From positions 62,001-126,000 of the forward strand of contig JAGXFN010000002.1 in assembly GCA_024637195.1 (NCBI GenBank): a stretch of DNA of 64,000 nt. The letters run 5' to 3'. Source of the DNA: Arcobacter sp. GTDB taxonomy: Bacteria; Campylobacterota; Campylobacteria; Campylobacterales; Sulfurimonadaceae. Shown here piece by piece: positions 26,729 to 53,560 of this stretch. The notes under the pieces are model-generated. The model searched no databases. It was not told the DNA's origin and worked only from the letters and a program-made list of their open reading frames with translations. How positions within the stretch are numbered: position 1 is the first letter of the stretch; every line of letters begins with the position of its first letter. Made by a program: the position numbers and the translations under genes.

Positions 26729-27532
26729 TTGCATATAAAAATAGCCGCTTTTTTTCTCATCTCAGTCGTCACGCTTTTTTTTGCTGGCTGTAGCAATGCT
26801 CAGATCTACAGCTCGAAAGCAGATATAGAAAACCTGGAGCTGCAGATCCAAAATGCCCACACCTCTTTACAGCGCACCCTCGCAGAGACAGAGGAACAAC
26901 ATAAAAAAGAGCTTGAAACGATGGCGCATGAACACAATGCGCTTATAGAGTTCATGACAACTCAGTTTGAAGAGTTGAGACAAGAAAACAACAGCACGAT
27001 ACAATTTTTAAAAGAGTTCAAGTGCAAAGTACAAGAAGCAAAGCGGATTATCGTAAGAAAAAACAATAAAGTTCCGAAGTATCTGCATGAAAAGATCCTC
27101 TTGGGTGCGGTAGAAAATGTAAGGATAACTCCTCCTGATCTTGTTTCCATCGCTAGAATAGACTCCGGAGCAGAAACATCTTCTATCGATGCAAGAGATA
27201 TTGAAGCGTTTGAAAGAGATGGAGAAAACTGGGTCAAGTTCAACTTTGTAGACAGAAGCAACAACAGTGTCCATCCGATAGAAGCGAAGGTATTGAAACA
27301 CGTAAAGATCAAACAGTCCTCACAGGACGAAACCTCTGAGAGAAGAATTGTTATCCAACTGAAGATAAACATTGGTGATATTTCGGAACTGAGTGAATTT
27401 ACCCTCACCAACAGAGAGCATCTGAAGTTCCCCCTCTTAATCGGCAGAAATATTTTAAAAGATATCGCCGTTGTAGATGTAAGTGCTGATAACTTGGCGC
27501 CTCTCAAAAGTAAAACGGTGAAAAAACAGTGA
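26729..27532 (+). CDS. Retropepsin-like (RimK-associated, 'ATP-dependent zinc protease' family) lipoprotein
   Basis: 267 residues from a TTG start preceded by AAACAGG; no ATG is suitably placed. A lipoprotein signal ends in 'VVTLFFAGC' (Cys at about residue 21). A coiled-coil stalk (about 30-95, many Gln and Glu) leads to a PF05618-type domain (about 110-260). Its active-site loop reads 'ARIDSGAETSSIDA', the D-[ST]-G-A of retropepsin-like aspartic proteases, followed later by 'FPLLIGRNILKDIAVVDV'. The family was first named a zinc protease, but the motif is that of an aspartic protease. The predicted location is anchored in the periplasm. The next gene overlaps by 4 bases. The substrate is unknown. 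Confidence 0.85.
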   Translation: MHIKIAAFFLISVVTLFFAGCSNAQIYSSKADIENLELQIQNAHTSLQRTLAETEEQHKKELETMAHEHNALIEFMTTQFEELRQENNSTIQFLKEFKCKVQEAKRIIVRKNNKVPKYLHEKILLGAVENVRITPPDLVSIARIDSGAETSSIDARDIEAFERDGENWVKFNFVDRSNNSVHPIEAKVLKHVKIKQSSQDETSERRIVIQLKINIGDISELSEFTLTNREHLKFPLLIGRNILKDIAVVDVSADNLAPLKSKTVKKQ

Positions 27533-29037
27533 TAAAATATACCTTTAACTTCATCATTGTCTCACTGATTGCACTGGGTCTTTTTATCGCCTGGCAAAGA
27601 CATCAGCACACGCAGATCCCTTTTGTCAGTGATGAAAAAAAATCTATTTGGCTTATCGAAGCAAAGCTTGAGTTTGAAGCAGACAAGAACAAGCCGGTAC
27701 TAGCCTCTTTGAGCATACCTGATCGCATCCCCGGATACAAGCGGTTTTTTGAACAGAGTGCTTCTGCCGGATACGGTTTTAATATCGTAGATGTAGACGC
27801 GCAACGAAGAGCGCAGTGGAGCATACGAAAAGCCGAGGGCAAGCAAACCCTCTACTACAAAGTTCAAGCTACAGAAGACAAAAGCTCCGTAGACACGCAA
27901 GATGCAGAGGTTCCCTCGCCGGGTAAAGACATCATTTGGACGAAGGTTGAAGAGCTGGCACTTCAAGAACTTTTAGACAAGGCGCTCAGCCGTTCAAGCG
28001 ACGATGTGACCTTGACAAGAGAGCTTATAAAACTCTTGTCAAGCGAGTCTATGAAAGAGAGTGCCTCCTTGCTCTTGTCAAACAAAAAAAAAGTAAATGT
28101 AATAAACTCTATACTGCATGAAGCCGGGGTCAAAAGCCGAATCGCCATGGGACTAAAACTCGAAGATGCCAGAAGAAACCAGACCCTCTCAGCGATGATC
28201 GAAGTCTATTCCGGCAAGAAATGGGTACTCTTCAATCCGGTCACTGCAAAAGAAAATACAAAAGAGGAACTTTTTTTATGGCACAGAGGCGGTGCTTTGA
28301 TAGAGATAAACGGCGGCTCTAATGCCAATGTGACCTTTTCTATGGTGAAGCAAAATATTCCCGCGCTCGAACTGGCCAAAACCAACTATGACGACTCTAC
28401 TTTCGGACTCTTCAGTGTCAGCTCTTTGCCCATAGAAGAGCAGAGCATATTTAAAATACTGCTGCTTTTGCCTATAGGAGCATTGATCACGGTATTTATG
28501 CGTCTTGTGGTCGGGATAAAGACCTCTGGAACCTTTATGCCGGTACTCATCGCCATGGCATTTTTACAAACCACACTTTTGCCGGGACTTATCACCTTTG
28601 TGATGATAGTAGCGGTGGGACTGCTGATACGAAGCTACCTGTCCCATCTTAATCTTTTGTTGGTCTCACGAATAGCCACTACTATAATCATCGTTATTTT
28701 TATCATACTGATAGCAAGTATCGTAGGGCACAGTCTGGGCTTTAACACGGGAATGACTGTCGCAATCTTCCCTATCATAATCCTTGCCTGGACGATTGAA
28801 AGGATGTCGATACTATGGGAAGAAGATGGGGCGCAGGAGGTACTGAAGCAGGGCGGCGGAAGCTTGTTCGTAGCGAGTATCGCCTATCTTGCGATGCAAA
28901 GTTCTATTGTCGGACATCTGAGTTTCAACTTTCCCGAGATCAACCTCATTGTCTTGGCTTTTATGATGCTCATGGGCAGATACACCGGCTATAGGCTCTC
29001 GGAGTTTTATAGATTCAGAGATTTTAAGGCCTTTTAA
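27529..29037 (+). CDS. Inactive transglutaminase domain protein with seven membrane helices
   Basis: 502 residues from GTG (GTGA overlap with the upstream gene). An N-terminal membrane anchor (about 5-22) leads to a periplasmic region (about 25-305) holding a transglutaminase-like core at about 180-245. The catalytic Cys is absent ('NVINSILHEAGVKSRIAMGL') and the His position reads 'SAMIEVYSGKKWVLFNP', so it should be catalytically dead. Six or seven helices follow (about 308-485), with 'GIKTSGTFMPVLIAMAFLQT' and 'ERMSILWEEDG', matching the 7TM_transglut family. Such proteins are found with a RimK-like ligase and a retropepsin-like protease. It may bind a peptide and pass it or a signal across the membrane. 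The function is undetermined. Confidence 0.85.
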   Translation: MIKYTFNFIIVSLIALGLFIAWQRHQHTQIPFVSDEKKSIWLIEAKLEFEADKNKPVLASLSIPDRIPGYKRFFEQSASAGYGFNIVDVDAQRRAQWSIRKAEGKQTLYYKVQATEDKSSVDTQDAEVPSPGKDIIWTKVEELALQELLDKALSRSSDDVTLTRELIKLLSSESMKESASLLLSNKKKVNVINSILHEAGVKSRIAMGLKLEDARRNQTLSAMIEVYSGKKWVLFNPVTAKENTKEELFLWHRGGALIEINGGSNANVTFSMVKQNIPALELAKTNYDDSTFGLFSVSSLPIEEQSIFKILLLLPIGALITVFMRLVVGIKTSGTFMPVLIAMAFLQTTLLPGLITFVMIVAVGLLIRSYLSHLNLLLVSRIATTIIIVIFIILIASIVGHSLGFNTGMTVAIFPIIILAWTIERMSILWEEDGAQEVLKQGGGSLFVASIAYLAMQSSIVGHLSFNFPEINLIVLAFMMLMGRYTGYRLSEFYRFRDFKAF

Positions 29038-29984
29038 TGTTCTCTTTTATTTCGCTAAAGAGCCTGAAAGAAAACGGCATTTTAGGTATGAATGCCAGAA
29101 ATGTCGAGTTTATAGGAAAGTACAATGATAGAAAACTCTATCCTCTTGTTGACAACAAACTCAAAACAAAACGCTTGGCTCTAAAAGCCGGTATAAACAT
29201 GCCAAGTCTTTTTTTTACTCTCTCCAAACAGCATGATGTGGCGATTTTGCAAGAGAAGATACAGGGGTTGGATGCCTTTGTCATCAAACCGTCACGAGGC
29301 TCGGGCGGAAAAGGGATACTGGTCATAAAGTCTAGAATAGACGACAAGTTTGTAAAAGCAAATGATGAGCTGATCTCTCTGGACGTGCTCAAAAGACATG
29401 TCACCAATATCCTAGCCGGCCTCTACTCTCTTGGGGGAAATCAGGATGTCGCTATCTTTGAAGACCTTATTATCGCAGACACGCTTTTGAAAAACTACTC
29501 CTATCAGGGGGTTCCGGATATCAGAATAATCATCTTCAGAGGCTACCCTGTCATGGCAATGCTCAGGCTCTCTACACAATCATCTGACGGCAAGGCAAAC
29601 CTTCACCAAGGCGCAGTCGGCGTCGGTATAAACCTGAAAACCGCCAAGGCATCCTACGCTGTTTTGAAGCAGTCAAGAGTCCTCATCCACCCGGATACAA
29701 AAAACGTCCTGGATAAGATAGAGATCGCAAACTGGGGCGAACTGCTCATCCTCGCCGCCAAATGTTATGACATGACAAAACTGGGCTATTTGGGCGTAGA
29801 CATTGTTATTGATGAGAAAAAAGGGCCGATGCTCCTGGAGCTCAATGCAAGACCCGGACTCTCCATCCAAGTAGCCAATTCAAAAGGTCTGCTGCCTCGT
29901 CTAAGAGAGATAGAAAAGATAAAAGAGATAGACCCTATTGCAAAAAACCGCGTAGATTTTGTACTGAAACAAGACTGGTTCTAA
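29037..29984 (+). CDS. ATP-grasp ligase related to RimK (alpha-L-glutamate ligase-like)
   Basis: The 315 residues have an ATP-grasp fold: the ATP-binding strand and loop 'FVIKPSRGSGGKGILVI' (about residues 82-98), 'IFEDLIIADTLLKNYSYQGV', and the Mg-binding 'GPMLLELNARPGLSIQ' (about 262-277) with Glu and Asn in place, so it should be active. Family members join an amino acid, often Glu, to a carboxylate. It has no signal or membrane segment and so is cytoplasmic. It starts within the TAATG overlap of the transglutaminase gene, so the three genes are translationally coupled. The acceptor is unknown. Confidence 0.87.
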   Translation: MFSFISLKSLKENGILGMNARNVEFIGKYNDRKLYPLVDNKLKTKRLALKAGINMPSLFFTLSKQHDVAILQEKIQGLDAFVIKPSRGSGGKGILVIKSRIDDKFVKANDELISLDVLKRHVTNILAGLYSLGGNQDVAIFEDLIIADTLLKNYSYQGVPDIRIIIFRGYPVMAMLRLSTQSSDGKANLHQGAVGVGINLKTAKASYAVLKQSRVLIHPDTKNVLDKIEIANWGELLILAAKCYDMTKLGYLGVDIVIDEKKGPMLLELNARPGLSIQVANSKGLLPRLREIEKIKEIDPIAKNRVDFVLKQDWF

Positions 29985-36797: not shown

Positions 36798-39305
36798 ATG
36801 AAAGCTGTTGTTATGGCAGGTGGATTCGGAACCAGAATACAGCCACTTACAAACTCTCGACCCAAGCCGATGCTGCCAGTTGCTAACAAGCCGATGATGG
36901 AACATACGATGATGATGCTCAAAGATCTGGGGATCACGGAGTTTATTGTCCTTCTTTATTTCAAGCCTGAGATCATCAAAGACTACTTCAAAGACGGTAG
37001 CGATTTCGGAATCAAGATCAGCTATGTGCTTCCAGATGATGATTATGGTACCGCAGGTGCCGTCAAGCTGGCGCAGAAGCTTATAGGAGATGAAAATTTC
37101 ATCATCATCAGCGGTGACCTGGTGACGGATTTTGATTTTCAGAAGATTTTTGACTATCACAAGGCCAAAAAGTCTAAGCTCACCATCACGCTGACCTCTG
37201 TAGAAAATCCTCTGGAGTTTGGCGTTGTAATCGCCAATGAAAATGGAAAGATTGAGCAGTTTCTTGAAAAGCCGAGCTGGGGAGAGGTCTTCAGCGATAC
37301 GATAAATACAGGCATCTACGTGATCGAGCCGGAGATACTTGAGTACATCCCAAAGAATGAAAACTTCGACTTTGCAAAAGACCTCTTTCCTCTTTTGATG
37401 CGCAAGGGAATCGACCTGATGGCAGGATATGCCCAAGGCTATTGGCGTGACGTGGGAAACCCGGAGAGCTATCGCGATGTGCATGATGACATTCTTGCGG
37501 GCAAGGTGAACATAAAGATCGGCGGAGTGAGAAGCCCTTTTCCTGACGGAGTGCTCTACAGTGATGAGAAGTACACCTTTGATAAAAGCATTGAAATCAT
37601 CGGTACCGTTGTCTTGGGTAAAAATGTTGTCATCAAAAACGGGACCAAGCTTAACAACGTCGTCATCGGCGATAATGTGACGATCGGCAAGGACAGCAAG
37701 ATCCGCAACAGCGTCATATGGGAGAATGTTAAAATCGAGCATCATGTCTTGCTTGACGGCTGTGTGATCTGCAACAAGAATGAGATCGGTAAGAATGTCA
37801 CGGCAAAAGCGGGAATGATCCTTGCCGAAGGGTGCGAGATCGGCCAGCTTGTGAATGTCGAAAAAGATGTGACGATCTGGCCTGACAAGGTCATAGAAGA
37901 GGCCTCTATCATCAGTCACAACCTGATCCTCGGCAGCCGCTACAAGAACTCCATCTTTGAAAACGGGATGGTCTTCGGGCAGTCTAATGTCGAGCTCTCC
38001 TGTGAGATGGCCACCAAACTCGCCGAAGCCTTCGGGGCACAGCTGCCGGTGGGATCAACAGTGCTTGTCTCGCGCGATTATCATAAAAGTTCGCGCATGC
38101 TCAAACGTGCTTTTTTAGGCGGTCTGCTCTCGGCCGGGATAGATGTCATCGACTACAGCGGCATCCCATCGGCCATATTGCGCTGCAACCTCTCTTCACA
38201 TGATGAGTTTATTGCCGGTGTGCATTTCCGCCAGAAGATCGATGACCCGACCAGTACGGTAATCACCTTTTATAATTGTGAAGCCCTGCGTATCAACAGC
38301 GAGGTAGCCAAAAAAGTGGAGAAAGCCTTTTTTAAAGAGAGCTTCCGCCGCGTGGATTACTCCCGTATCGGTCAGATCCATGAGTCAGACCATGATCAGG
38401 AGTACACTGCCTACAAACAGAGGATTGAAAACCTGCTGAAGTCAAATATGTTCACCTCTGTGGGTTGCCGGGTTGCGGTGGATATGATGCATGGTATGGC
38501 AGCAGATGTTTTTCCGGACATCCTGAATGACATCGGGCTGGAAAACATCATGTTCAATGCCTACCCGAACGAGCAGCGTCTGGCAAATATCTCTAGCTTG
38601 ACAAAGCAGTCGAACGAAGACATGAGTTCTGTCATCAAAGCACTTCACCTTGATGCGGGATTTATGATCTACCCTTATGGTCAGCGCCTGGACATCTTAT
38701 GCGACAAGGGACGGCTGCTTGGCAAGCAGACCTCTTTGCATGTGGTCCTTTCGCTTTTAAATATGGAGGCCAAACAAGAAGGACATAAAAAACGTGTCTT
38801 TCTGCCGACCTGGGCTGCGGATATCGTCTATTTTGAACATCTGCAGATCGAGCGCGGAAAGTATGTGAACTTTAAAGCCGAAGATATGAGAAAGTATGAT
38901 CTTTTGGCTACGGGCGAGGGGAACTTTGCCTTTACAGAGTTTGCAACGCATCGTGACTCCATGTATGCAAGTTTGAAAATTCTTGAGATGATGCTAAAGC
39001 ACAAGGTGAAGCTGTCAGATCTGATCGAGGCGCTTCCGAACTTTTATTATCATACGTCTCGGGCAAAGTGTCCGCAGGCTCTCAAGGGGAAGATGATGCG
39101 CATGTTCCTTGAAGATGCCAAAGACAAAGAGTCATCAACACTTGACGGTGTGAAGATCTGGCTGGATAAAAACGAGTGGATATTGATGATCCCGGACCAG
39201 TATAATGAACATCTTAACCTTTATATACAGGCTGAAAATGAAGAGATCGGTCAAAAGATCCTGGCGGAGTACGCCTCCAAAATAGAGAAGTGGTCACAGC
39301 TGTAA
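36798..39305 (+). CDS. Nucleotidyltransferase - left-handed beta-helix - degenerate phosphohexomutase fusion
   Basis: The 835 residues have three parts. An NTP-transferase (about 1-235) has 'GGFGTRIQPLTNSRPKPM' and 'IISGDLVTDFDF'. A hexapeptide-repeat helix (about 250-370) follows. A phosphohexomutase-type region (about 385-830) begins 'ELSCEMATKLAEAFGAQLPV'. In the mutase part the catalytic 'T-x-S-H-N-P' site reads 'GVHFRQKIDDPTSTV', and the metal loop 'D-x-D-x-D-R' reads 'IYPYGQRLDIL', so it cannot be an active mutase. Similar fusions are annotated as mannose-1-phosphate guanylyltransferase. Here, as the first gene of a glycogen operon without glgC, it could make ADP- or GDP-glucose. That is inference. 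Confidence 0.82.
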   Translation: MKAVVMAGGFGTRIQPLTNSRPKPMLPVANKPMMEHTMMMLKDLGITEFIVLLYFKPEIIKDYFKDGSDFGIKISYVLPDDDYGTAGAVKLAQKLIGDENFIIISGDLVTDFDFQKIFDYHKAKKSKLTITLTSVENPLEFGVVIANENGKIEQFLEKPSWGEVFSDTINTGIYVIEPEILEYIPKNENFDFAKDLFPLLMRKGIDLMAGYAQGYWRDVGNPESYRDVHDDILAGKVNIKIGGVRSPFPDGVLYSDEKYTFDKSIEIIGTVVLGKNVVIKNGTKLNNVVIGDNVTIGKDSKIRNSVIWENVKIEHHVLLDGCVICNKNEIGKNVTAKAGMILAEGCEIGQLVNVEKDVTIWPDKVIEEASIISHNLILGSRYKNSIFENGMVFGQSNVELSCEMATKLAEAFGAQLPVGSTVLVSRDYHKSSRMLKRAFLGGLLSAGIDVIDYSGIPSAILRCNLSSHDEFIAGVHFRQKIDDPTSTVITFYNCEALRINSEVAKKVEKAFFKESFRRVDYSRIGQIHESDHDQEYTAYKQRIENLLKSNMFTSVGCRVAVDMMHGMAADVFPDILNDIGLENIMFNAYPNEQRLANISSLTKQSNEDMSSVIKALHLDAGFMIYPYGQRLDILCDKGRLLGKQTSLHVVLSLLNMEAKQEGHKKRVFLPTWAADIVYFEHLQIERGKYVNFKAEDMRKYDLLATGEGNFAFTEFATHRDSMYASLKILEMMLKHKVKLSDLIEALPNFYYHTSRAKCPQALKGKMMRMFLEDAKDKESSTLDGVKIWLDKNEWILMIPDQYNEHLNLYIQAENEEIGQKILAEYASKIEKWSQL

Positions 39306-41338
39306 TGCCTACATCATCCCTGAACCTCTGTTTTTTCTGGCATATGCACCAGCCCGACTATCGAGATGCCAAGGGAGTGATGACAATGCCTTGGGTCTTT
39401 TTACATGCGATCAAAGACTATTATGAGATGCCCTGGCTGCTAAGCCGCTATCCGGGCCTCAAAGCCACGTTTAATATCACTTCAACGCTGATCGAGCAGA
39501 TCAATCTCTACGACGATCCCTTGAAAAATGATTACTTTCTTTCCTTATGGGAGCGTCATCCCTCGCATCTGACGGCACAAGAGAGGGCATGGCTGATCAA
39601 GATCTGCAAGTCAACGCAGTACGAGACAATGATCAGGCCGATGCCAAATCTGGAGAAGCTTTATAATAAAGAAGAGCTCAGTGATGATGAACTTATCGAC
39701 TTTGAGCTGCTTTTTATGCTGGCCTGGTGCGGAAATGCCCTTCGACACGAAAACAACCTGGTAAAGACGTTGATGAAAAAAGAAGAGGGTTTTGTGCAGA
39801 GCGATAAGAGCAACCTGCTCACAATGCTCTGCGACTTCGTGGGGACGATCCTTCCTTTTTACGCACGGCTGCACAAAGAGGGAGTGATCTCGCTTTCGAC
39901 GACTCCTTACAACCATCCTATTCTTCCTTTGCTGCTTGACGTAGAAAATGCCAGGCACGCCAACACCCATGCAACCCTCCCGGACAACCCGATCTCTCTT
40001 CAAGAAGATGCTCTCGAGCAGGTGAGGCGTGCTATAGCGCTCTATGAGAAGACATTTTCAAGCCGTCCAAGCGGTTTTTGGCCGGCAGAGGGAGCAGTGG
40101 ATGAGCAGAGCGTGGCCCTGTACAAAGAACAGGGGATCCGCTGGATAGCAACAGATGAAGCAATCTTGTTCCGCTCGCTTGAGGACAACACCCGGTTGCA
40201 TCTCTATAAGCCCTACCGCTATAAGGGGATGACCATCGGTTTTCGCGATCATAACCTGAGCGATCTGATCGGTTTTACCTACCGTTTCAAGTCCGGACAT
40301 GAGGCAATGGAGCATTTTATGCACAGCCTGGAGAGTATCGCCAAGACACAGAAGGAATCGACACTTTTTGTTATCCTTGACGGAGAGAATGCCTGGGAGT
40401 TCTTTGAAAACAATGCCTTTGATTTTTTCACGGCAATCTATCAGCGCCTTTCAAAAACACCCTGGTGCACAACAGTGAGTATGGATGAGGTCTCTGAGAT
40501 GAAGAACCAGGGAAGGCTCGAAACACTTGCTCCGGGAAGCTGGATAAACGGCGATTTTTCTACCTGGTCCGGGCATCCGGAGAAAAACCGTGCCTGGGAG
40601 TTTATCTATCAGACACGGCGCGACGTTGACAACTACTCAGGAACTATTTCGTCTGAAGCAGAAGAAAAGATAAGGTCGCATTTTTTGGCCGCAGAGTGCA
40701 GTGACTGGTTCTGGTGGTACGGCGATGATCATGTCACGGAGTTTGCCTTTGAATTTGATACTCTTTTCCGTGAACATCTGCTCTCTATCTACTGGCTGCT
40801 TGAGATGCAGCCCCCCTCAGATCTGTTTGAGCCGATCATCAGCCACAAGAGCAGTGCCTCGTTTCTGCTCAAACCGCAGACCTCGATTTCTCCTCATATC
40901 GACGGAAATATAAGCTCTTTTTTCAAGTGGCTCGGTAGCGGCTATGTTGACGAAGAGCAGCTCTACTCGACGATGGATCGCGAACGCGGCCCCATCAAAA
41001 AGATCTATTACGGGCATGATGACAAAAAAGTCTATCTGGCGTTTGAAGGAGAAGTCGCTTCGCTTGAGCGCTCAAACCTGGAACTAAAGGTCATCTTTGA
41101 AGAAACAGGCGCACAGCTTAGTTTTTCGCTTGAGCGACCCTTTATGGACAAAGACGCACAGCTGGCCATCGGCGAACAGGTGGAACTTGCCCTGTCACGT
41201 TCACATTTTAAAGCGTATAATACTGTCCATCTTCGTTTTGAGATAGTACAAGAAGAACGCATTATACAAACGATGCCCGGCTATGGTTCTCTTTTTATCG
41301 ATCTCGATGAGACTTACGAGAAAAACTGGTTTGTATAA
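39305..41338 (+). CDS. GH57 glycoside hydrolase (amylopullulanase/alpha-amylase-like)
   Basis: 677 residues from the ATG at 39305, which overlaps the previous TAA by one base. GH57 conserved regions are all visible: I 'FFWHMHQPDY' (residues about 9-18), II 'STTPYNHPILPLL', III 'GFWPAEGAVDEQ' with the nucleophile Glu, IV 'VILDGENAWEFF' with the acid/base Asp, and the helical end of the catalytic domain. A beta-rich C-terminal region (about 510-670) follows. It should cut or transfer alpha-1,4 or alpha-1,6 glucan bonds. No signal peptide means cytoplasmic action on glycogen. Confidence 0.87.
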   Translation: MPTSSLNLCFFWHMHQPDYRDAKGVMTMPWVFLHAIKDYYEMPWLLSRYPGLKATFNITSTLIEQINLYDDPLKNDYFLSLWERHPSHLTAQERAWLIKICKSTQYETMIRPMPNLEKLYNKEELSDDELIDFELLFMLAWCGNALRHENNLVKTLMKKEEGFVQSDKSNLLTMLCDFVGTILPFYARLHKEGVISLSTTPYNHPILPLLLDVENARHANTHATLPDNPISLQEDALEQVRRAIALYEKTFSSRPSGFWPAEGAVDEQSVALYKEQGIRWIATDEAILFRSLEDNTRLHLYKPYRYKGMTIGFRDHNLSDLIGFTYRFKSGHEAMEHFMHSLESIAKTQKESTLFVILDGENAWEFFENNAFDFFTAIYQRLSKTPWCTTVSMDEVSEMKNQGRLETLAPGSWINGDFSTWSGHPEKNRAWEFIYQTRRDVDNYSGTISSEAEEKIRSHFLAAECSDWFWWYGDDHVTEFAFEFDTLFREHLLSIYWLLEMQPPSDLFEPIISHKSSASFLLKPQTSISPHIDGNISSFFKWLGSGYVDEEQLYSTMDRERGPIKKIYYGHDDKKVYLAFEGEVASLERSNLELKVIFEETGAQLSFSLERPFMDKDAQLAIGEQVELALSRSHFKAYNTVHLRFEIVQEERIIQTMPGYGSLFIDLDETYEKNWFV

Positions 41339-44407: not shown

Positions 44408-45824
44408 ACCTTCGTTGCTTTTTGCCGCAAGCGAGGTCTATCCCTTTGCCAAGAGCGGCGGACTTGCCGATGTGGCACACAGCCTGCCTCGGGCACTGGC
44501 CTGCGAGTATGAGGTGAGTGTCGTAATGCCGCTTTACCGTTTTGTCGACCGAGAGAAATATGCGATAGCAGCACTCGGAGAGGCCTTTGAGATAGAGATG
44601 GGCGGAGTCGAATATCCGGTTGAACTTTTTGGATGCGAGTATGAGGGGTTGAGGCATATTTTCATCTATTCGCCGCTGTTGAGCGAAAAAGATTTTCTTT
44701 ACGGCACGCCCGAAAAGGGCTACGAAGATAACGCGATTCGGTTCGGCATCTTCAACTATGCGATCGTTTCTTTGCTAAAAAGGCGCCAATACGCCATTGC
44801 CCATCTGAACGACTGGCAGAGTGCGCTTGTGCCGCTGCTTCTCAAGGACGAGGAGACAATCAGCACAAAAATACTCTATACCATCCACAATCTTGCCTAT
44901 CAGGGCACCTTTGAAAAAAGTGCCCTCGCAGAGCTTGGCCTCGACGAGGGGTGTTTTACGATGGAGGAGATAGAGTTTTACGCGATGCTGAGCTTTATGA
45001 AGGCAGGCATCGCTTATGCGGACATGATCACGACAGTAAGCCCGACCTACGCCAAGGAGATACTGACCTTGGAGTTTGGATGCGGGCTGGATGGGTTTTT
45101 AAGACATCACCGCAACAAACTCACGGGCATCATCAACGGGATCAATGCAGAACATTTTTCGCCCGAACACGACAGCGCCCTTGTTACACCTTATAGCGAT
45201 CTCAGCGGAAAAGCGCTCAATAAAAAAGCCTATCTCAGAGAAGTCGGTCTCACGGGGGCGAAGAAGCCGCTCTTTGTCTTTGTGGGACGCTTTACCTCTC
45301 AGAAGGGACTGGATATTCTGATAGAGAGCTTGCCGAAGATGGCCTCGACAGAGTGCAATATCGCGCTCTTGGGAGAGGGCGAAGAGAAGTATCATGCGGC
45401 ACTCAAAGAGATTGTGAGCAAGTATCCTAATGTTTATCTGGAATTTGGCTACGATGAGAGGCATTCGCACCGGATGTATGCGGCGGCGGACTTCTTGCTG
45501 ATGCCCTCATTATTTGAGCCCTGCGGTTTGAACCAGATGATCGCCATGGCCTACGGGGCGATGCCGGTTGTGCATCGCGTCGGCGGTTTGGCAGATACGG
45601 TTTTTGAGTATACAGACTTTGAGCCGCTGGCAAACAGAGGCTACGGAGTAGTTTTTACCAAAGCAAGCGCGCACTCATTTACCAAGGCCTTTGAGCAGGC
45701 ACAGACACTTTATAAGAACAAGCGTCACTACAACAGGATCATAAAACACAATATGCGATGCGATTTTTCCTGGCAGGAGAGCGCCAAGGCCTATCTTTCA
45801 CTCTACGCACAGCTCTTGAAATGA
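44400..45824 (+). CDS. glgA: Glycogen synthase, paralogue 1 (GT5)
   Basis: The 474 residues have the GT5 two-domain layout. N-terminal 'FAASEVYPFAKSGGLADVAH' has the Lys-x-Gly-Gly loop that binds ADP-glucose. 'AHLNDWQSALVPLLL' and 'YTIHNLAYQG' follow. The C-terminal domain has 'VFVGRFTSQKGLDILIES' and 'LLMPSLFEPCGLNQMIAMAYG'. It extends alpha-1,4-glucan chains. It overlaps the GalT-like gene by 8 bases and the glucokinase gene by 4. A second, divergent glgA lies one gene downstream. Confidence 0.93.
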   Translation: MYKPSLLFAASEVYPFAKSGGLADVAHSLPRALACEYEVSVVMPLYRFVDREKYAIAALGEAFEIEMGGVEYPVELFGCEYEGLRHIFIYSPLLSEKDFLYGTPEKGYEDNAIRFGIFNYAIVSLLKRRQYAIAHLNDWQSALVPLLLKDEETISTKILYTIHNLAYQGTFEKSALAELGLDEGCFTMEEIEFYAMLSFMKAGIAYADMITTVSPTYAKEILTLEFGCGLDGFLRHHRNKLTGIINGINAEHFSPEHDSALVTPYSDLSGKALNKKAYLREVGLTGAKKPLFVFVGRFTSQKGLDILIESLPKMASTECNIALLGEGEEKYHAALKEIVSKYPNVYLEFGYDERHSHRMYAAADFLLMPSLFEPCGLNQMIAMAYGAMPVVHRVGGLADTVFEYTDFEPLANRGYGVVFTKASAHSFTKAFEQAQTLYKNKRHYNRIIKHNMRCDFSWQESAKAYLSLYAQLLK

Positions 45825-46666
45825 AAAAGCTCTACATCGATATCGGCGGCACCCATCTTCGCAGCGAGCTCCAAAGTCTGCAGGAGTCTGTTCCTCAGGC
45901 CATAAGTTCCAAAGAAAAGGGCCTCTTTGCTTATATAAGCGAAAAAATGCAAGAGCATCCTGAGATAACTTTTATCGGAATTTCCTATGCAGGGCAGGTT
46001 TACGAAGGAAGAATACTCTCTGCTCCCAACATTATCGTAGATGAAGAAATGATCAAATACAGAGTTGAGTCAGAGTACGGAGTACACCTTGAGATCGATA
46101 ACGATCTCAACTGCGCTGTTATGGCCGAGGCGGAGTACTATGGCGCACAGAGTATTGCCGCATTGTATGTGGGAACCGGTCTGGGAGCCGCCTTTATCGA
46201 CAGCGGAAGGCTGATGCGCGGAGGAAGAAACCTGGCCTTTGAGATCGGGCATATTCCCTACCAAAATGCCCCCTTTTCCTGCGGATGCGGACGAGAAAAC
46301 TGTGTAGAACTTTTTGCATCGGGATCAGCAATATCGAAGTGGCTGCGCTATTTTTGCAGCGACAGCTCTTCTGATCTAGAGAAGCTTAAAGCATCGGATT
46401 TGGACTTTGAGCGCGCTATAGCGGAGCAGTTTGAAGTGGCTCTTTTGCATGCCGCGGGGACAGTGGTAGGTGTGGCAAATCCGCTGCTTCTCATTCTTGG
46501 AGGCGGGGTCATAGAAAAAAATCCTTACCTTTTCGAACGTTTGAAAACAGACCTTAAATCATTCGCCCTGAAACCTTCGCTTGAAACTCTGCGCATCGAG
46601 ACGAGTGTACTGGGAAATGCTCCGATGGAAGGGGCCAAACTACTTGAAAAGAGAAAATATGGATAA
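45821..46666 (+). CDS. ROK-family sugar kinase (probable glucokinase)
   Basis: 281 residues from the ATG at 45821, in an ATGA overlap with glgA; the longer frame runs into glgA. ATP-binding 'LYIDIGGTHLRSE', catalytic 'LEIDNDLNCAVMAEAEYYG', 'VGTGLGAAFIDSG', 'FEIGHIPY' with a metal-binding His, and the ROK zinc site 'SCGCGRENCVELFASGSA' are all present. It should phosphorylate glucose released from glycogen or maltodextrin. The assignment to glucose rests on the neighbours. Confidence 0.88.
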   Translation: MKKLYIDIGGTHLRSELQSLQESVPQAISSKEKGLFAYISEKMQEHPEITFIGISYAGQVYEGRILSAPNIIVDEEMIKYRVESEYGVHLEIDNDLNCAVMAEAEYYGAQSIAALYVGTGLGAAFIDSGRLMRGGRNLAFEIGHIPYQNAPFSCGCGRENCVELFASGSAISKWLRYFCSDSSSDLEKLKASDLDFERAIAEQFEVALLHAAGTVVGVANPLLLILGGGVIEKNPYLFERLKTDLKSFALKPSLETLRIETSVLGNAPMEGAKLLEKRKYG

Positions 46667-48146
46667 GCTGAATATCTTGATCGTCGCTTCAGAAGTCGTC
46701 CCTTTCGCAAAAAGCGGGGGTCTGGCCGATGTGGCGGGCGCTTTGCCAAAAGCCTTGCGCGCACTGGGACACGATGTCCGGGTGGTGATGCCGCGCTACT
46801 ATATCGTCGACAAACAGAAGTACGGTTTGAAACCTGTCGAAGGCTCTTTGGGCGTGCCGATGGGAAGTAGCGAAGTGTGGGGCGCTGTTCTTGAGACAGT
46901 TCTTCCCGGAAGCGATGTTCCTGTTTATTTTATCGAGCATGAAGGTTTTTTCGGCCGAAAGGGGCTTTATGATGAGGAAGGAAAAGGCTATGAGGACAAC
47001 GACAAGCGCTTTATATTTTTTTCCAAAGCAGTTATGCAGCTGGCAAAAAAACTCCATTTTAGACCCGATGTGATCCACGTCAACGACTGGCATACAGCGG
47101 CAATACCGGTGCTGCTTAACACCACCTACGCTTTTGATCGCAATTTTGCGCATACGGGTTCACTGCTTAGCATACACAATCTGGAGCATCAAGGCAGGTT
47201 TCCTAAGAGCGCTATGGACACACTGGCCATCGGCTGGGAGCATTTTAATGCTGGTGAGCTAGAAGAGTATGGTGACGTCAACCTGCTCAAGGGCGGCATC
47301 GTCCATGCCGATGCTATCAATGCCGTGAGCAAGAAGTACGCGCAGGAGATACGTACCAAAGAGTTCGGCTGGGGGTTTGAGGAGCTGATCGCGCAAAGAG
47401 CCTACAAGCTTCACGGCATCCTCAACGGCGTCGATTATGAAGAGTGGAGTCCGGCGGTGGACAGGCTGATCGCACGGAAGTTTGACGCGAATGATCTTTC
47501 GGGCAAGGCCGTTTGCAAAACACAACTGCAACAAAAATTCAATCTTCCGGCACGTAGCGATGTTCCCGTGATAGGGCTGGTGAGCCGTCTTGCCGAACAA
47601 AAGGGGATACGCCTGCTCGCAGAGGCGATCTGGGAGATCTTGGAGATGGATGTCCAGATCGTTCTGCTGGGCGCAGGAGAGAAATGGGCAGAGCATTTTT
47701 TCAGCGATGTCGCCTCGAAGTATCCTGAAAAGTTTGGTGTTTATATCGGTTATCAGAACGAGCTTGCCCACCAGATAGAAGCGGGAAGCGATCTCTTCTT
47801 GATGCCCTCGCTTTTCGAGCCCTGCGGCTTGAATCAGATCTACAGTCTGCGTTACGGCACCCTTCCTATAGTAAGGGCCACGGGGGGACTGGACGATACG
47901 ATAGAGAATTACTGTGCAAAGGATAAGAGCGGTACGGGATTCAAGTTTTATGACGCCACCGCTCAGGCACTCACAACAACGGTAAAATGGGCGGTGCATA
48001 CCTGGTACGAGGAGAGAGAAGACTTCGATCAGCTGCGCAACAATGCGATGAGACAGCGTTTTGACTGGAAGGTGGCGGCGAGTGAGTATGTATCGCTTTA
48101 CCGCAGCATCATCCGCGGACGCCGCAAAAAAGAGGAACAGATATGA
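46659..48146 (+). CDS. glgA: Glycogen synthase, paralogue 2 (GT5)
   Basis: 495 residues from the ATG at 46659 (8-base overlap with the kinase gene). GT5 marks are 'IVASEVVPFAKSGGLADVAG', 'VIHVNDWHTAAIPVLL', 'IHNLEHQGRFP', 'IGLVSRLAEQKGIRLL' and 'FLMPSLFEPCGLNQIYSLRYG'. It is clearly homologous to paralogue 1 but differs along most of its length. Where bacteria carry two synthases, one may start chains and the other elongate, or they may prefer different primers. Either idea is inference. The branching enzyme gene overlaps by 4 bases. Confidence 0.94.
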   Translation: MDKLNILIVASEVVPFAKSGGLADVAGALPKALRALGHDVRVVMPRYYIVDKQKYGLKPVEGSLGVPMGSSEVWGAVLETVLPGSDVPVYFIEHEGFFGRKGLYDEEGKGYEDNDKRFIFFSKAVMQLAKKLHFRPDVIHVNDWHTAAIPVLLNTTYAFDRNFAHTGSLLSIHNLEHQGRFPKSAMDTLAIGWEHFNAGELEEYGDVNLLKGGIVHADAINAVSKKYAQEIRTKEFGWGFEELIAQRAYKLHGILNGVDYEEWSPAVDRLIARKFDANDLSGKAVCKTQLQQKFNLPARSDVPVIGLVSRLAEQKGIRLLAEAIWEILEMDVQIVLLGAGEKWAEHFFSDVASKYPEKFGVYIGYQNELAHQIEAGSDLFLMPSLFEPCGLNQIYSLRYGTLPIVRATGGLDDTIENYCAKDKSGTGFKFYDATAQALTTTVKWAVHTWYEEREDFDQLRNNAMRQRFDWKVAASEYVSLYRSIIRGRRKKEEQI

Positions 48147-50061
48147 AACACCCTATCCACTACGACTTTTCCGTGCTCAGCGAGCTCGATATTTACCTCT
48201 TTAAAGAGGGAAAACATACGAAACTCTATGAGAAGCTCGGCGCACACACTTTGCGTCACAAAGACAAAGAGGGGATCTGTTTTGCCGTCTGGGCGCCTAA
48301 TGCCCAGAGCGTGAGTGTGCGCGGCGATTTTAATGACTATAGTGTGGATGCGCATCCGCTGCAGCTGCGAGGTGACAGTTCGGGCATCTGGGAGGGTTTC
48401 ATCGAGAGTGTGGATCAGGGGATGACGTACAAGTATCATATCGTCTCGAAGTTCAACGATATCGTCCATGACAAGAGCGATCCCTTCGCTTTTTACAGCG
48501 AGAAGCCCTCGAAGTCCGCATCGCGAATCTGGAGTCTGGAGGGCTACGGATGGAAAGATGACACATGGATGCAAGAACGCCATGCCCATAACGCCTATGA
48601 TGCTCCGGTCAGCATTTATGAGATGCATCTTGGCTCCTGGATGCGAAAAGTAGAAGAGCAGAACCGCTACCTTAGCTACATGGAGCTTTCCGTCGAGCTG
48701 GTAAAGTATCTCAAATTTATGAACTATACCCATGTCGAGTTTATGCCCTTGAGCGAGTATCCCTTTTTCGGCTCCTGGGGATATCAGGTGGTTGGCTACT
48801 TTTCCGCGACGGCGCGTTTTGGCGAACCGCAGGAGCTGATGCACCTGATCGACACCCTGCACCAAAACGGTATCGGAGTGATCATGGACTGGGTTCCCTC
48901 ACATTTTGCCGTCGATATGCATGGCCTGATCAACTTTGACGGAACCGCGCTGTATGAGCATGAGGACCCGAAACAGGGGTTTCATCCTGAGTGGGGAAGC
49001 CTCATCTTCAACTACGGCCGCAATGAGGTGAAGTCTTTTCTGATCAGTTCGGCGATGTTCTGGCTGGATAAATATCACATCGACGGCATCCGCGTCGATG
49101 CGGTCGCCTCGATGCTATACCTCGACTATGCCCGCAACGACGGGGAGTGGATACCCAATGCCGAGGGGGGAAATGAGAATTTAGAAGCGGTAGAGTTTTT
49201 GCGCTCGCTCAACGAGAGTGTTTATGCCGAGTTCTCAGACATTATGATGATTGCCGAAGAGTCTACAGCTTGGCCTATGGTGACACGTCCGACCAGTGTG
49301 GGCGGACTTGGTTTCGGCTTCAAATGGAACATGGGCTGGATGCATGATACACTCAAATATATGAGCTATGACCCGATCGCACGACAGCATCATCATCGCC
49401 AGATCACCTTTAGTATGTGGTACGCCTTTGACGAGCACTTTATGCTGCCGCTGAGCCATGACGAGGTCGTGCATCTGAAGGGTTCACTGATCAACAAGAT
49501 GCCCGGTGACACTAACCAGAAATTCGCCAACCTGCGAGCGATGTATACCTATATGATGGCGCATCCGGGCAAGAAGCTGCTCTTTATGGGCGGAGAGATC
49601 GCTCAATTTAGCGAATGGAACCATGAACAGAGTCTCGACTGGCACCTGCTGGAAAATCCGCTGCATACCAAGCTGCAAAAGATGCTGAGCGACCTGAATG
49701 ACTTATACCGCAATGAGCGCGCCCTCTATCAGTATGACGAGAAGCGCAAAGGGTTTGAGTGGATTGAGCAGAACGACCACCGCAACAACTGCGTCAGTTT
49801 CATGCGCAAAAGCGACAAGGCGGATGAGACGGTCTATGTCGCATGCAACTTTGCGGATGAGACCCAGACAGAGTACAGAATAGGCGTGCCCTATGCGGGG
49901 AATTACAAAGAGATATTTAACTCCCAGTCAGCCTTGTACGAAGGGTGGGATATCGGCAATGCCGAAGCCGTGGAAGCCGTGAAAGAACCGATGCACGGAC
50001 GCGACTATTCACTTGCGTTGACCCTCCCGCCTCTGGGCGTGGTCTATCTTAAACGAATACC

Positions 50062-50065
<4 letters not shown>
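48143..50065 (+). CDS. glgB: 1,4-alpha-glucan branching enzyme
   Basis: The 640 residues have an N-terminal CBM48 (about 35-130, '[18 protein letters not shown]'), a GH13 barrel and a C-terminal beta domain. '[18 protein letters not shown]' is the branching-enzyme signature. The catalytic residues are Asp in '[12 protein letters not shown]' (nucleophile), Glu in '[11 protein letters not shown]' and Asp in '[15 protein letters not shown]'. It forms alpha-1,6 branches. It is the last gene of the 36.8-50.1 kb operon, and its stop overlaps the convergent pgm stop by 4 bases. Confidence 0.97.
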
Positions 50066-51696
<1,631 letters not shown>

Positions 51697-51919: not shown

Positions 51920-53560
51920 ATGGTACTGCATGATTATGAGTTTGATTCAAAATACACGACAAGTGTTGCTTACTTCTGTATGGAGTTCGCTATTCATCAG
52001 GCATTAAAGATCTATTCGGGGGGTTTGGGTTTTCTGGCCGGCTCACATATGCGCAGTGCCTATGATCTGCGTCAAAACCTTGTCGGGGTTGGGATCTTGT
52101 GGAGCTACGGCTATTATGATCAGACCCGTTACGAAGACGGGAGCCTTAAAGCAGAGTTTATCCGCAAGCACTACTATTTTCTTGAAGATCTTGGGGTCCA
52201 GGCTACAGTGAACATTCACGATCAAGACGTGCATATCAAAGCCTTTTACCTAGCACCGGATATTTTCAGCTCTGCGCCTTTGATCCTTCTGACGACAGAT
52301 ATTCCAGAAAATGACTTTCTTGCACGTACGATCACCCATAAACTTTATGATGCCAACGAAGAGACCCGCATCTCTCAAGAGGTCGTTTTGGGTGTGGGCG
52401 GAGTGAAGGTGCTAGAGGCCTTGAAGCAGAAGATCGACATCTACCATATGAATGAAGGGCATGCCCTGCCTTTGGCATATGAGCTTTATGACAGGTTTGG
52501 TGATATGGAGACGGTGAAAAAGCATGTGGTCTTTACGACGCATACTCCCGAAGATGCAGGAAATGAACAGCACAATATCCATTTGCTGCACAAGTTCGGT
52601 TTTTTCAACGGTCTAGATCTGGAAACGGTACGCAGCATAACAAACGTATATGGGGACAGTTTCAATCTGACCGTCGGCGCATTGCGTGCTGTAAAGATTA
52701 CGAATGCTGTCTCGAAATTTCACGGCGAAGTGGCGAACCGTATGTGGAAGGACTGCGAAGGGCGTTCGGAGATCATCTATATCACCAATGCTCAAAACAG
52801 ACGTTTTTGGATGGACAAGGGGATGCTCTCCGCACTTGATGAGCATGAGGATTACGCCCTGATTTCTCGTAAAAAACATCTAAAACGGCTTCTGTTCGCC
52901 ATAGTGGCTGACCAGACAGGCAAGATGTTTGATCCCGATGTCTTGACTATCGTCTGGGCACGCCGTTTTGCAGAATATAAGCGCCCGGGACTGATCAAAA
53001 AGGATCTTGCGCGCTTTAAAAAACTTCTTGAAAATACACAAAGACCTGTCCAGGTAATCTGGGCCGGCAAGCCTTATCCCTTTGACACCAATGCGGTCAA
53101 TGCCTTTAATGAACTCATCCATATCAGCCGGAGCCTCAAAAATATGGCGGTGCTTATCGGGTATGAGCTCGAACTTTCACGCGTACTGAAAAAAGGAAGT
53201 GACGTCTGGCTCAATACCCCGCGTGTTTCAAGAGAAGCGAGCGGTACAAGCGGAATGACGGCAAGCATGAACGGCTCTATCCACTTCTCGACAGATGACG
53301 GCTGGCATCCGGAGTTCGCCAAAAAAGGATGCAACTCTTTTACTATTCCGCCGATTGACCACAACAAGCCTGTGGAAGAGCAGGATTATGAAGACAATAA
53401 AAACCTGATGGATATCCTTGAAAATGCGATCATTCCGATGTATTACGATAAACCCGAGCACTGGACGCAGATGATGAAAACGGCGATGTTTGACGTGATC
53501 CCTTACTTTGATTCGGGGCGCATGGTGAATGAATATTACACTAAGATGTACGACAGCTGA
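51920..53560 (+). CDS. Alpha-glucan phosphorylase homologue (GT35) lacking the PLP lysine
   Basis: The 546 residues are of the short bacterial phosphorylase type. Family parts are 'VAYFCMEFAIHQALKIYSGG', 'FLAGSHMRSAYDLRQNLVGV', 'HMNEGHALPLAYELYD', 'FTTHTPEDAGNEQH', 'ARRFAEYKRPGL' and 'AGKPYPFD'. Near the end, the segment that normally reads G-T-S-x-M-K reads 'EASGTSGMTASMNGS': Thr stands where the Schiff-base Lys for pyridoxal phosphate belongs. Ordinary phosphorolysis is therefore doubtful. It could be a PLP-free transferase, a regulator, or part of a subfamily sharing this change. It has its own promoter next to pgm. Confidence 0.85.
   Translation: MVLHDYEFDSKYTTSVAYFCMEFAIHQALKIYSGGLGFLAGSHMRSAYDLRQNLVGVGILWSYGYYDQTRYEDGSLKAEFIRKHYYFLEDLGVQATVNIHDQDVHIKAFYLAPDIFSSAPLILLTTDIPENDFLARTITHKLYDANEETRISQEVVLGVGGVKVLEALKQKIDIYHMNEGHALPLAYELYDRFGDMETVKKHVVFTTHTPEDAGNEQHNIHLLHKFGFFNGLDLETVRSITNVYGDSFNLTVGALRAVKITNAVSKFHGEVANRMWKDCEGRSEIIYITNAQNRRFWMDKGMLSALDEHEDYALISRKKHLKRLLFAIVADQTGKMFDPDVLTIVWARRFAEYKRPGLIKKDLARFKKLLENTQRPVQVIWAGKPYPFDTNAVNAFNELIHISRSLKNMAVLIGYELELSRVLKKGSDVWLNTPRVSREASGTSGMTASMNGSIHFSTDDGWHPEFAKKGCNSFTIPPIDHNKPVEEQDYEDNKNLMDILENAIIPMYYDKPEHWTQMMKTAMFDVIPYFDSGRMVNEYYTKMYDS

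Follow-up and report, generated by a model that had tools for sequence, protein, structure and literature searches.

Glycogen phosphorylase homologues without the pyridoxal phosphate lysine form a distinct clade in several bacterial phyla

Introduction

The window, i.e. the whole stretch of 64,000 nucleotides of an Arcobacter sp. contig analysed here, carries a gene for a phosphorylase-like protein in which the lysine that binds pyridoxal 5'-phosphate (PLP) is replaced by threonine. On balance, the protein is probably a functional alpha-1,4-glucan (glycogen/maltodextrin) phosphorylase homologue which belongs to a widespread and distinct clade and works without PLP bonded at the canonical lysine. 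The lysine is lost throughout the clade, while the other catalytic residues and the fold are kept, the gene is under purifying selection within a glycogen cluster and the protein replaces other GT35 proteins one for one. From these observations we infer its catalytic activity, its product and the absence of PLP.

In textbooks, glycogen phosphorylase is the enzyme whose catalysis relies on the phosphate of PLP, and to our knowledge its PLP-lysine bond has been taken as universal. The preliminary description of this DNA likewise ascribed the lysine to all studied phosphorylases; this was too broad, as the glycogen phosphorylase of Methanococcus maripaludis is reported by a citing article to be PLP-independent (Gonzalez-Ordenes et al. 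2024, cited in PMC12267944). The concept of a PLP-independent glycogen phosphorylase is therefore not new, being known, according to that article, from one archaeon. What appears to be undescribed in the literature searched is a single Lys-less clade that extends over several bacterial phyla, is usually the only GT35 protein of its carriers and has signature residues of its own; no description of a Lys-less bacterial clade was found in the open-licence papers searched.

The bacteria that carry this clade probably break down glycogen without a PLP-lysine bond, and the ordinary enzyme appears to have been replaced in relatives of Akkermansia, in Chryseobacterium, Pedobacter and Hymenobacter, in Gastranaerophilales and in sulfur-oxidising Campylobacterota. 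With such a natural clade the role of PLP could be tested directly by comparison of natural enzymes, and the loss of the cofactor would be tied to the ancestry that has been proposed for phosphorylases among nucleotide-sugar enzymes. Moreover, many genes annotated as 'alpha-glucan family phosphorylase' (at least 118 loci) may not encode ordinary PLP enzymes, which would affect models of vitamin B6 and carbon storage.

Results

The window gene and the residue at the PLP-lysine position

The gene and the codon concerned are located as follows:
51920..53560, forward strand: Lys-less GT35/TIGR02094 protein of 546 aa, annotated in relatives as glgP, 'alpha-glucan family phosphorylase'
53258-53260, forward strand: codon ACG for Thr447, at the site of the PLP Schiff-base lysine (E. 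coli MalP Lys646), by alignment

The open reading frame starts with ATG and contains no internal stop codon. In profile searches the protein was assigned to TIGR02094 with 453.3 bits (cut-off 191.7, E 1.5e-135), and it scored 54.6 bits against PF00343 (cut-off 27), being the only PF00343 match in the 2.18-Mb genome, which is 89% complete. The PLP segment reads EASGTSGMTASMNGS. The replacement of the lysine, which had been noted from the letters alone, was thus confirmed by the alignment with MalP; the EASGT motif is followed by Thr447 at the place of the Schiff-base lysine of PLP-dependent glycogen phosphorylase (EC 2.4.1.1).

A dN/dS of 0.029 was obtained for the gene against a relative of the same genus (G004), which indicates strong purifying selection. 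By this value and the clade-wide conservation, a sequencing error or a pseudogene is ruled out, and together with the intact reading frame they bear out the earlier view that decay is unlikely. The gene had also been credited with its own promoter. As it is divergent from pgm, it does need one, but a consensus scan lends no support, as 5 sites were found versus 4.0 +/- 2.3 expected by shuffling.

Extent and phylogeny of the Lys-less clade

In the main alignment the PLP-lysine site is occupied by Thr in 98, Ser in 40 and Ala in one of 139 short relatives, and by Lys in all 22 TIGR02094 proteins that retain the lysine (Lys-forms). After further sequences had been added, Thr (55) or Ser (19) was found in 74 Lys-less proteins versus Lys in 63 of 63 Lys-forms, the latter including two classical E. 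coli enzymes. A whole-protein search of Campylobacterota gave Thr, Ser or Ala in all 76 locus rows of the short form, a number in which overlapping loci are counted too, and Lys in 13 of 13 long forms. By the same kind of search, about half of 100 order-level relatives possess the short form, with Ala at the site in one genome, and 14 possess a separate form of 700-740 aa, with Lys in all 13 loci read.

The GTDB species were scanned with a pattern in which the codon after EASGTSGM has any base but A in the second position. At least 118 loci were obtained from Bacteroidota, Verrucomicrobiota (Akkermansia), Gastranaerophilales, Halopseudomonas, Beijerinckiaceae and Campylobacterota, and all the loci listed belong to the same family of about 550 aa. 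In order to check this motif-selected scan, 148 evenly drawn Bacteroidota genomes were searched for the family without the motif, and Thr or Ser was found in 18 of 18 short forms retrieved and Lys in 30 of 30 long forms. The Lys-less gene is also present on two Bacteroidota plasmids. The clade was found in Campylobacterota, Bacteroidota, Verrucomicrobiota, Gastranaerophilales and a few Pseudomonadota; an oddity limited to Campylobacterota is rejected by the GTDB scan and the plasmid matches. The pattern scan of viral contigs gave no match, and matches in a phage collection did not exceed 31% identity. On a Runella plasmid (L052, NZ_CP030856 27210-27650) a gene of the pyridoxamine 5'-phosphate oxidase family lies 30 bases after the Lys-less gene, possibly by coincidence.

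In a tree of 89 proteins, calculated after removal of the motif columns, 56 Lys-less and 33 Lys proteins are split by one branch with an SH-aLRT of 98, and Sulfuricurvum genomes hold the closest named kin of the window protein; the tree has long branches next to the root, so that the exact sister group of the clade is unsure. Scattered convergent losses of the lysine are not supported, as the Lys-less proteins form one side of a branch. The suggestion that an alignment of GT35 members might reveal a subfamily defined by this site was thus justified, in that Thr, Ser or Ala occurs in all 139 sequences and these form one clade.

Co-occurrence with glgA and other GT35 genes

Among the relatives, 45 of 47 carriers of the Lys-less form have a GlgA over the cut-off (Fisher p 7e-17), and in the 148 Bacteroidota another GT35 protein occurs in none of 19 carriers versus 108 of 129 non-carriers (p 3e-13); both p-values ignore shared ancestry and are therefore too small. 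The 54 genomes with GlgA comprise 35 with the Lys-less form only, 10 with both, 3 with the long form only and 6 with neither. No other GT35 protein was present in 26 of 28 carriers picked across phyla. In several phyla, the distribution is as expected of a protein that substitutes for other GT35 proteins one for one, and the ten Campylobacterota genomes with GlgA that keep both forms may indicate that the two are not fully redundant.

For some Bacteroidota carriers, the searches for a full-length GlgA and for a GlgB above the cut-off both gave no match, a point against the phosphorylase reading. A half glycogen synthase with the N-terminal GT5 domain (PF08323) only was observed in the sampled Bacteroidota and alphaproteobacterial carriers (G100-G111, G114, G115, G126, G127), some of which are without full-length GlgA; these proteins have about 265-308 aa, with a frame of 382 aa in one case. 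Furthermore, a short Lys-bearing glgP (544-621 aa) recurs on plasmids of cyanobacteria, alphaproteobacteria, Methylophaga and Chlamydiota (L173-L175, L179, L181, L272-L274), next to metal-resistance, CBS-domain, type II GAPDH or phosphoglucomutase genes.

The glycogen cluster

The preliminary description placed the gene in a full glycogen locus, and indeed two glgA genes, glgB, pgm, two GH57 genes and a glucokinase gene are present in the window:
36798..39305, forward strand: fusion of nucleotidyltransferase and phosphoglucomutase/phosphomannomutase (nucPMM), by Pfam; conserved neighbour
39290..41338, forward strand: GH57 glycoside hydrolase (GH57a), PF03065
41350..43389, forward strand: GH57 of the alpha-amylase/4-alpha-glucanotransferase type (GH57b), PF03065, PF09094, PF09095
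43376..44407, forward strand: GalT-like uridylyltransferase, PF01087
44400..45824, forward strand: glycogen synthase GlgA, first copy, TIGR02095 8e-147
45758..46666, forward strand: ROK-family glucokinase-like gene, PF00480; two relatives have its homologue as part of a fusion with the Lys-less protein
46653..48146, forward strand: glycogen synthase GlgA, second copy, TIGR02095 3.6e-167
48143..50065, forward strand: glycogen branching enzyme GlgB, NF008967 2.5e-284
50062..51696, reverse strand: phosphoglucomutase (glucose-1-phosphate to glucose-6-phosphate), divergent from the Lys-less gene, TIGR01132 2e-259

In Campylobacterota the cluster is conserved with varying order and contains nucPMM, two GH57 genes, galT, glgA, glk, glgA, glgB, pgm, pgi, the Lys-less gene and pgk/pfk/pyk/gap. 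The nucPMM fusion (835 aa), in which the nucleotidyltransferase is of the sugar type, is a constant member and possibly forms ADP-glucose, and the pair of differing glgA genes on either side of the glucokinase gene is conserved in many of these clusters. The commonest direct neighbour of the Lys-less gene is pgi, and pgm is frequent. A ROK glucokinase gene adjoins it in four loci (L106, L123, L149, L222), and two genomes of a single genus have a ROK glucokinase domain joined in frame at the N-terminal end of the Lys-less protein (L041:7606-10170, reverse strand, 854 aa; L043:2375-4753, forward strand). In three loci (L049, L050, L051) the Lys-bearing long form occupies the same slot by pgi, pgm, nucPMM and GH57 genes and the Lys-less gene is absent; both forms occur together in several clusters (L032-L034). 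A GH77 MalQ was not found in the genome of the window, in which a GH57 enzyme of the 4-alpha-glucanotransferase type is present. Elsewhere in the window, an inactive transglutaminase/7TM protein (PF14400, PF14402) is followed by a sugar-transfer ATP-grasp protein (PF14397) at 27529-29984.

Predicted fold and comparison with known systems

An AlphaFold2 model of the window protein, for which 51 clade members served as input, reached a pLDDT of 93.7 and a pTM of 0.92 and has the glycogen-phosphorylase GT-B fold of the TIGR02094 family. The best match among solved folds was the glycogen phosphorylase of Segatella copri (9l6i, Z 35.4, rmsd 2.2, 533 residues aligned, 33% identity), followed by MalP (1qm5, Z 32.4) and by GT5 synthases with ADP (6gne, Z 32.0; 2qzs, Z 31.8; Z about 32 over 440-452 residues). 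A profile search of the PDB gave no match closer than the Lys-bearing 9l6i/20yr pair, and a Lys-less structure was not found.

The TIGR02094 Lys-forms, such as S. copri GlgP and the short plasmid forms of cyanobacteria, alphaproteobacteria and Chlamydiota, share with the clade the fold, the profile, the EASGTSGM motif, the Arg/Lys phosphate pair, the catalytic Glu, His and Asn and the glycogen context. They differ in having Lys in 63 of 63 instead of Thr, Ser or Ala, and in lacking Trp346 and a stripe formed by Glu416, Ser420 and Lys424; many of them have 700-870 aa with an N-terminal extension, whereas a segment that follows the TNG/TNA motif is missing from the Lys-less clade. Classical GlgP/MalP (TIGR02093; E. 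coli, rabbit muscle) have the same GT-B fold and the same catalytic residues, but carry the Schiff base (Lys646 in MalP), have about 800 aa and are about 20% identical to the window protein, which scored 51 bits against TIGR02093 (cut-off 553). GT5 GlgA resembles the Lys-less protein in the fold, the Arg/Lys phosphate pair and the Gly-Tyr and Ser of the nucleotide site, yet it has EPCGL instead of EASGT, and the window protein remained far below the GT5 synthase cut-off (TIGR02095, 31.1 bits versus 328.45).

Kept and clade-specific residues of the active site

The active-site segments in the window gene are:
52955..52981, forward strand: clade-specific Trp346 and the phosphate-binding pair Arg349/Lys354 (RRFAEYK), by alignment
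53165..53191, forward strand: clade-invariant stripe of Glu416 (53165-53167), Ser420 (53177-53179) and Lys424 (53189-53191), by alignment and model
53234..53248, forward strand: Glu439 to Thr443 (EASGT), catalytic Glu and phosphate-loop Thr, invariant in both groups

Glu439, Arg349, Lys354 and Thr443 are kept in all 74 Lys-less proteins, as in the Lys-forms, with Arg349 and Lys354 invariant across both groups, and Tyr415 is kept in 73 of the 74. The NEGH, HTP and TN motifs are retained, as are the catalytic His and Asn positions. By contrast, Glu416, Ser420 and Lys424 occur in 74 of 74 clade members versus 0, 2 and 0 of the 63 Lys-forms, respectively, which have V, I, T, L or Y at the position of Lys424. 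Trp346 is found in 138 of 139 clade sequences versus F/Y in the TIGR02094 Lys-forms. Trp61, Asn215, Lys318, Glu416, Ser420 and Lys424 each reach at least 99.5% (printed as 1.0) in the 139 sequences, and Trp346 and Gly414 are further clade-specific residues.

In the AlphaFold2 model, Glu416, Ser420 and Lys424 are spaced i, i+4 and i+8 along helix 417-426, directly after Tyr415 of the PLP site. From GT-B topology this predicted helix is taken to adjoin the helix that bears the PLP lysine. It thus seems that the phosphate subsite is intact and that the pocket of the PLP ring has been re-lined, a picture that fits three readings: that phosphate alone suffices, that PLP is carried on Lys424 or that a nucleotide is bound.

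Discussion

Probable phosphorolysis without PLP on the canonical lysine

The Lys-less protein is the sole GT35 protein in most carriers, tracks glgA and shares its slot with a Lys-bearing form, and is therefore probably a phosphorylase substitute. It had been proposed that glycogen breakdown depends on the GH57 enzymes and glucokinase, with this protein in another role. This is not favoured given the shared slot and the status as only GT35 protein; most likely the protein fills the phosphorylase slot, the basis for phosphorolysis being the genomic replacement. Nor need the GH57 4-alpha-glucanotransferase and glucokinase mark an alternative route, since the same set, as in the MalP-MalQ-Glk-Pgm scheme of E. 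coli, comprises the normal partners of a maltodextrin/glycogen phosphorylase.

In the proposed mechanism, the glucan end and inorganic phosphate would bind in the usual GT-B cleft, where phosphate would be held by Arg349 and Lys354 together with the glycine loop (Gly34-Gly35) and the N-terminal end of the EASGT helix, and the glucosyl ring by Glu439. Glucose-1-phosphate would be released with retention. A group held non-covalently in the retained phosphate subsite, in the simplest case free phosphate as in PLP-free GT-B phosphorylases, would take over the proton relay of the PLP 5'-phosphate, and the vacated ring pocket would be re-lined by Glu416, Ser420, Lys424, Trp346 and Thr/Ser447. GH57b as 4-alpha-glucanotransferase, glucokinase for freed glucose and phosphoglucomutase for glucose-1-phosphate would act as partners. 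Pyridoxal-reconstituted phosphorylase has reportedly been studied with phosphate analogues (by Parrish in 1977).

PLP-free phosphorolysis is made credible by two precedents. The M. maripaludis enzyme, according to the citing article, is active without PLP, as is proposed here; it is archaeal and is likened to the clade by its described behaviour. The GT-B trehalose phosphorylase works with an R-x4-K motif (PMC12018205); the Schizophyllum commune enzyme also releases glucose-1-phosphate, but it differs in family and substrate and is a mechanistic precedent only.

Possible exchange of the cofactor

Tentatively, and with less confidence than is placed in phosphorolysis without PLP on the canonical lysine, it may be considered that the PLP cofactor was exchanged in the clade, either by a move of the lysine to Lys424 or by a pocket that holds a loose nucleotide or phosphate and so couples glycogen breakdown to the energy state. 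If true, a textbook cofactor was re-engineered once and spread over several phyla, replacing the ordinary phosphorylase.

The first variant, a PLP-dependent phosphorylase whose Schiff base has left the EASGT helix and now sits on Lys424 of the adjoining helix, with Thr/Ser447 making room, is unlikely. Lys424 is plausibly a serious candidate for a neighbouring lysine that takes over PLP, as every clade member but none of the Lys-forms has it (74 of 74 versus 0 of 63) and it is predicted to lie two turns below Glu416 on helix 417-426, next to the Tyr415 conserved in all phosphorylases. However, by reasoning from Rossmann geometry it should lie about one turn deeper than Thr447, which makes its reach uncertain; five other invariant clade-specific sites, including Lys318, do not single it out; and the M. 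maripaludis enzyme is PLP-independent as far as the citing article reports.

A nucleotide in the old ring pocket, through which the protein would, in the manner of GT5, make or use ADP/UDP-glucose or employ AMP as a loose cofactor, is quite unlikely. Ser420 lies at Tyr+5, the position of Ser395 of GT5 starch synthase, which contacts adenine N3 and ribose by way of water (PMC6086201); the residue preceding the Tyr is Gly as in GlgA; the GT5-ADP structures score nearly as high on the model as the phosphorylases; and PLP has been proposed as an evolutionary replacement of a nucleoside monophosphate (PMC11046441). Against this, similarity to the GlgA profile amounts to about 20-41 bits in Lys-less and Lys-bearing relatives alike (cut-off 328), so that a global GT5-like convergence is not supported, two real glgA genes are already present in the locus, and the Ile/Val that sandwiches adenine is replaced by Ala347 in the window protein.

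Less likely readings: release of glucose or loss of catalysis

An enzyme that without PLP transfers glucosyl units to water or to another glucan, the freed glucose being captured by glucokinase, is improbable. The glucokinase adjoining or fused in six Campylobacterota loci also fits glucose release and to that extent counts against phosphorolysis without the canonical lysine, but adjacency to pgi is much commoner and pgm is frequent, the GH57 4-alpha-glucanotransferase of the cluster would free glucose anyway, and the phosphate-binding residues are invariant. Finally, a catalytically dead or regulatory glycogen-binding protein, as might be expected from the loss of a residue that textbook phosphorylases are held to need, is very improbable for a protein that is usually the sole GT35, is under strong purifying selection and has all other catalytic residues invariant across phyla.
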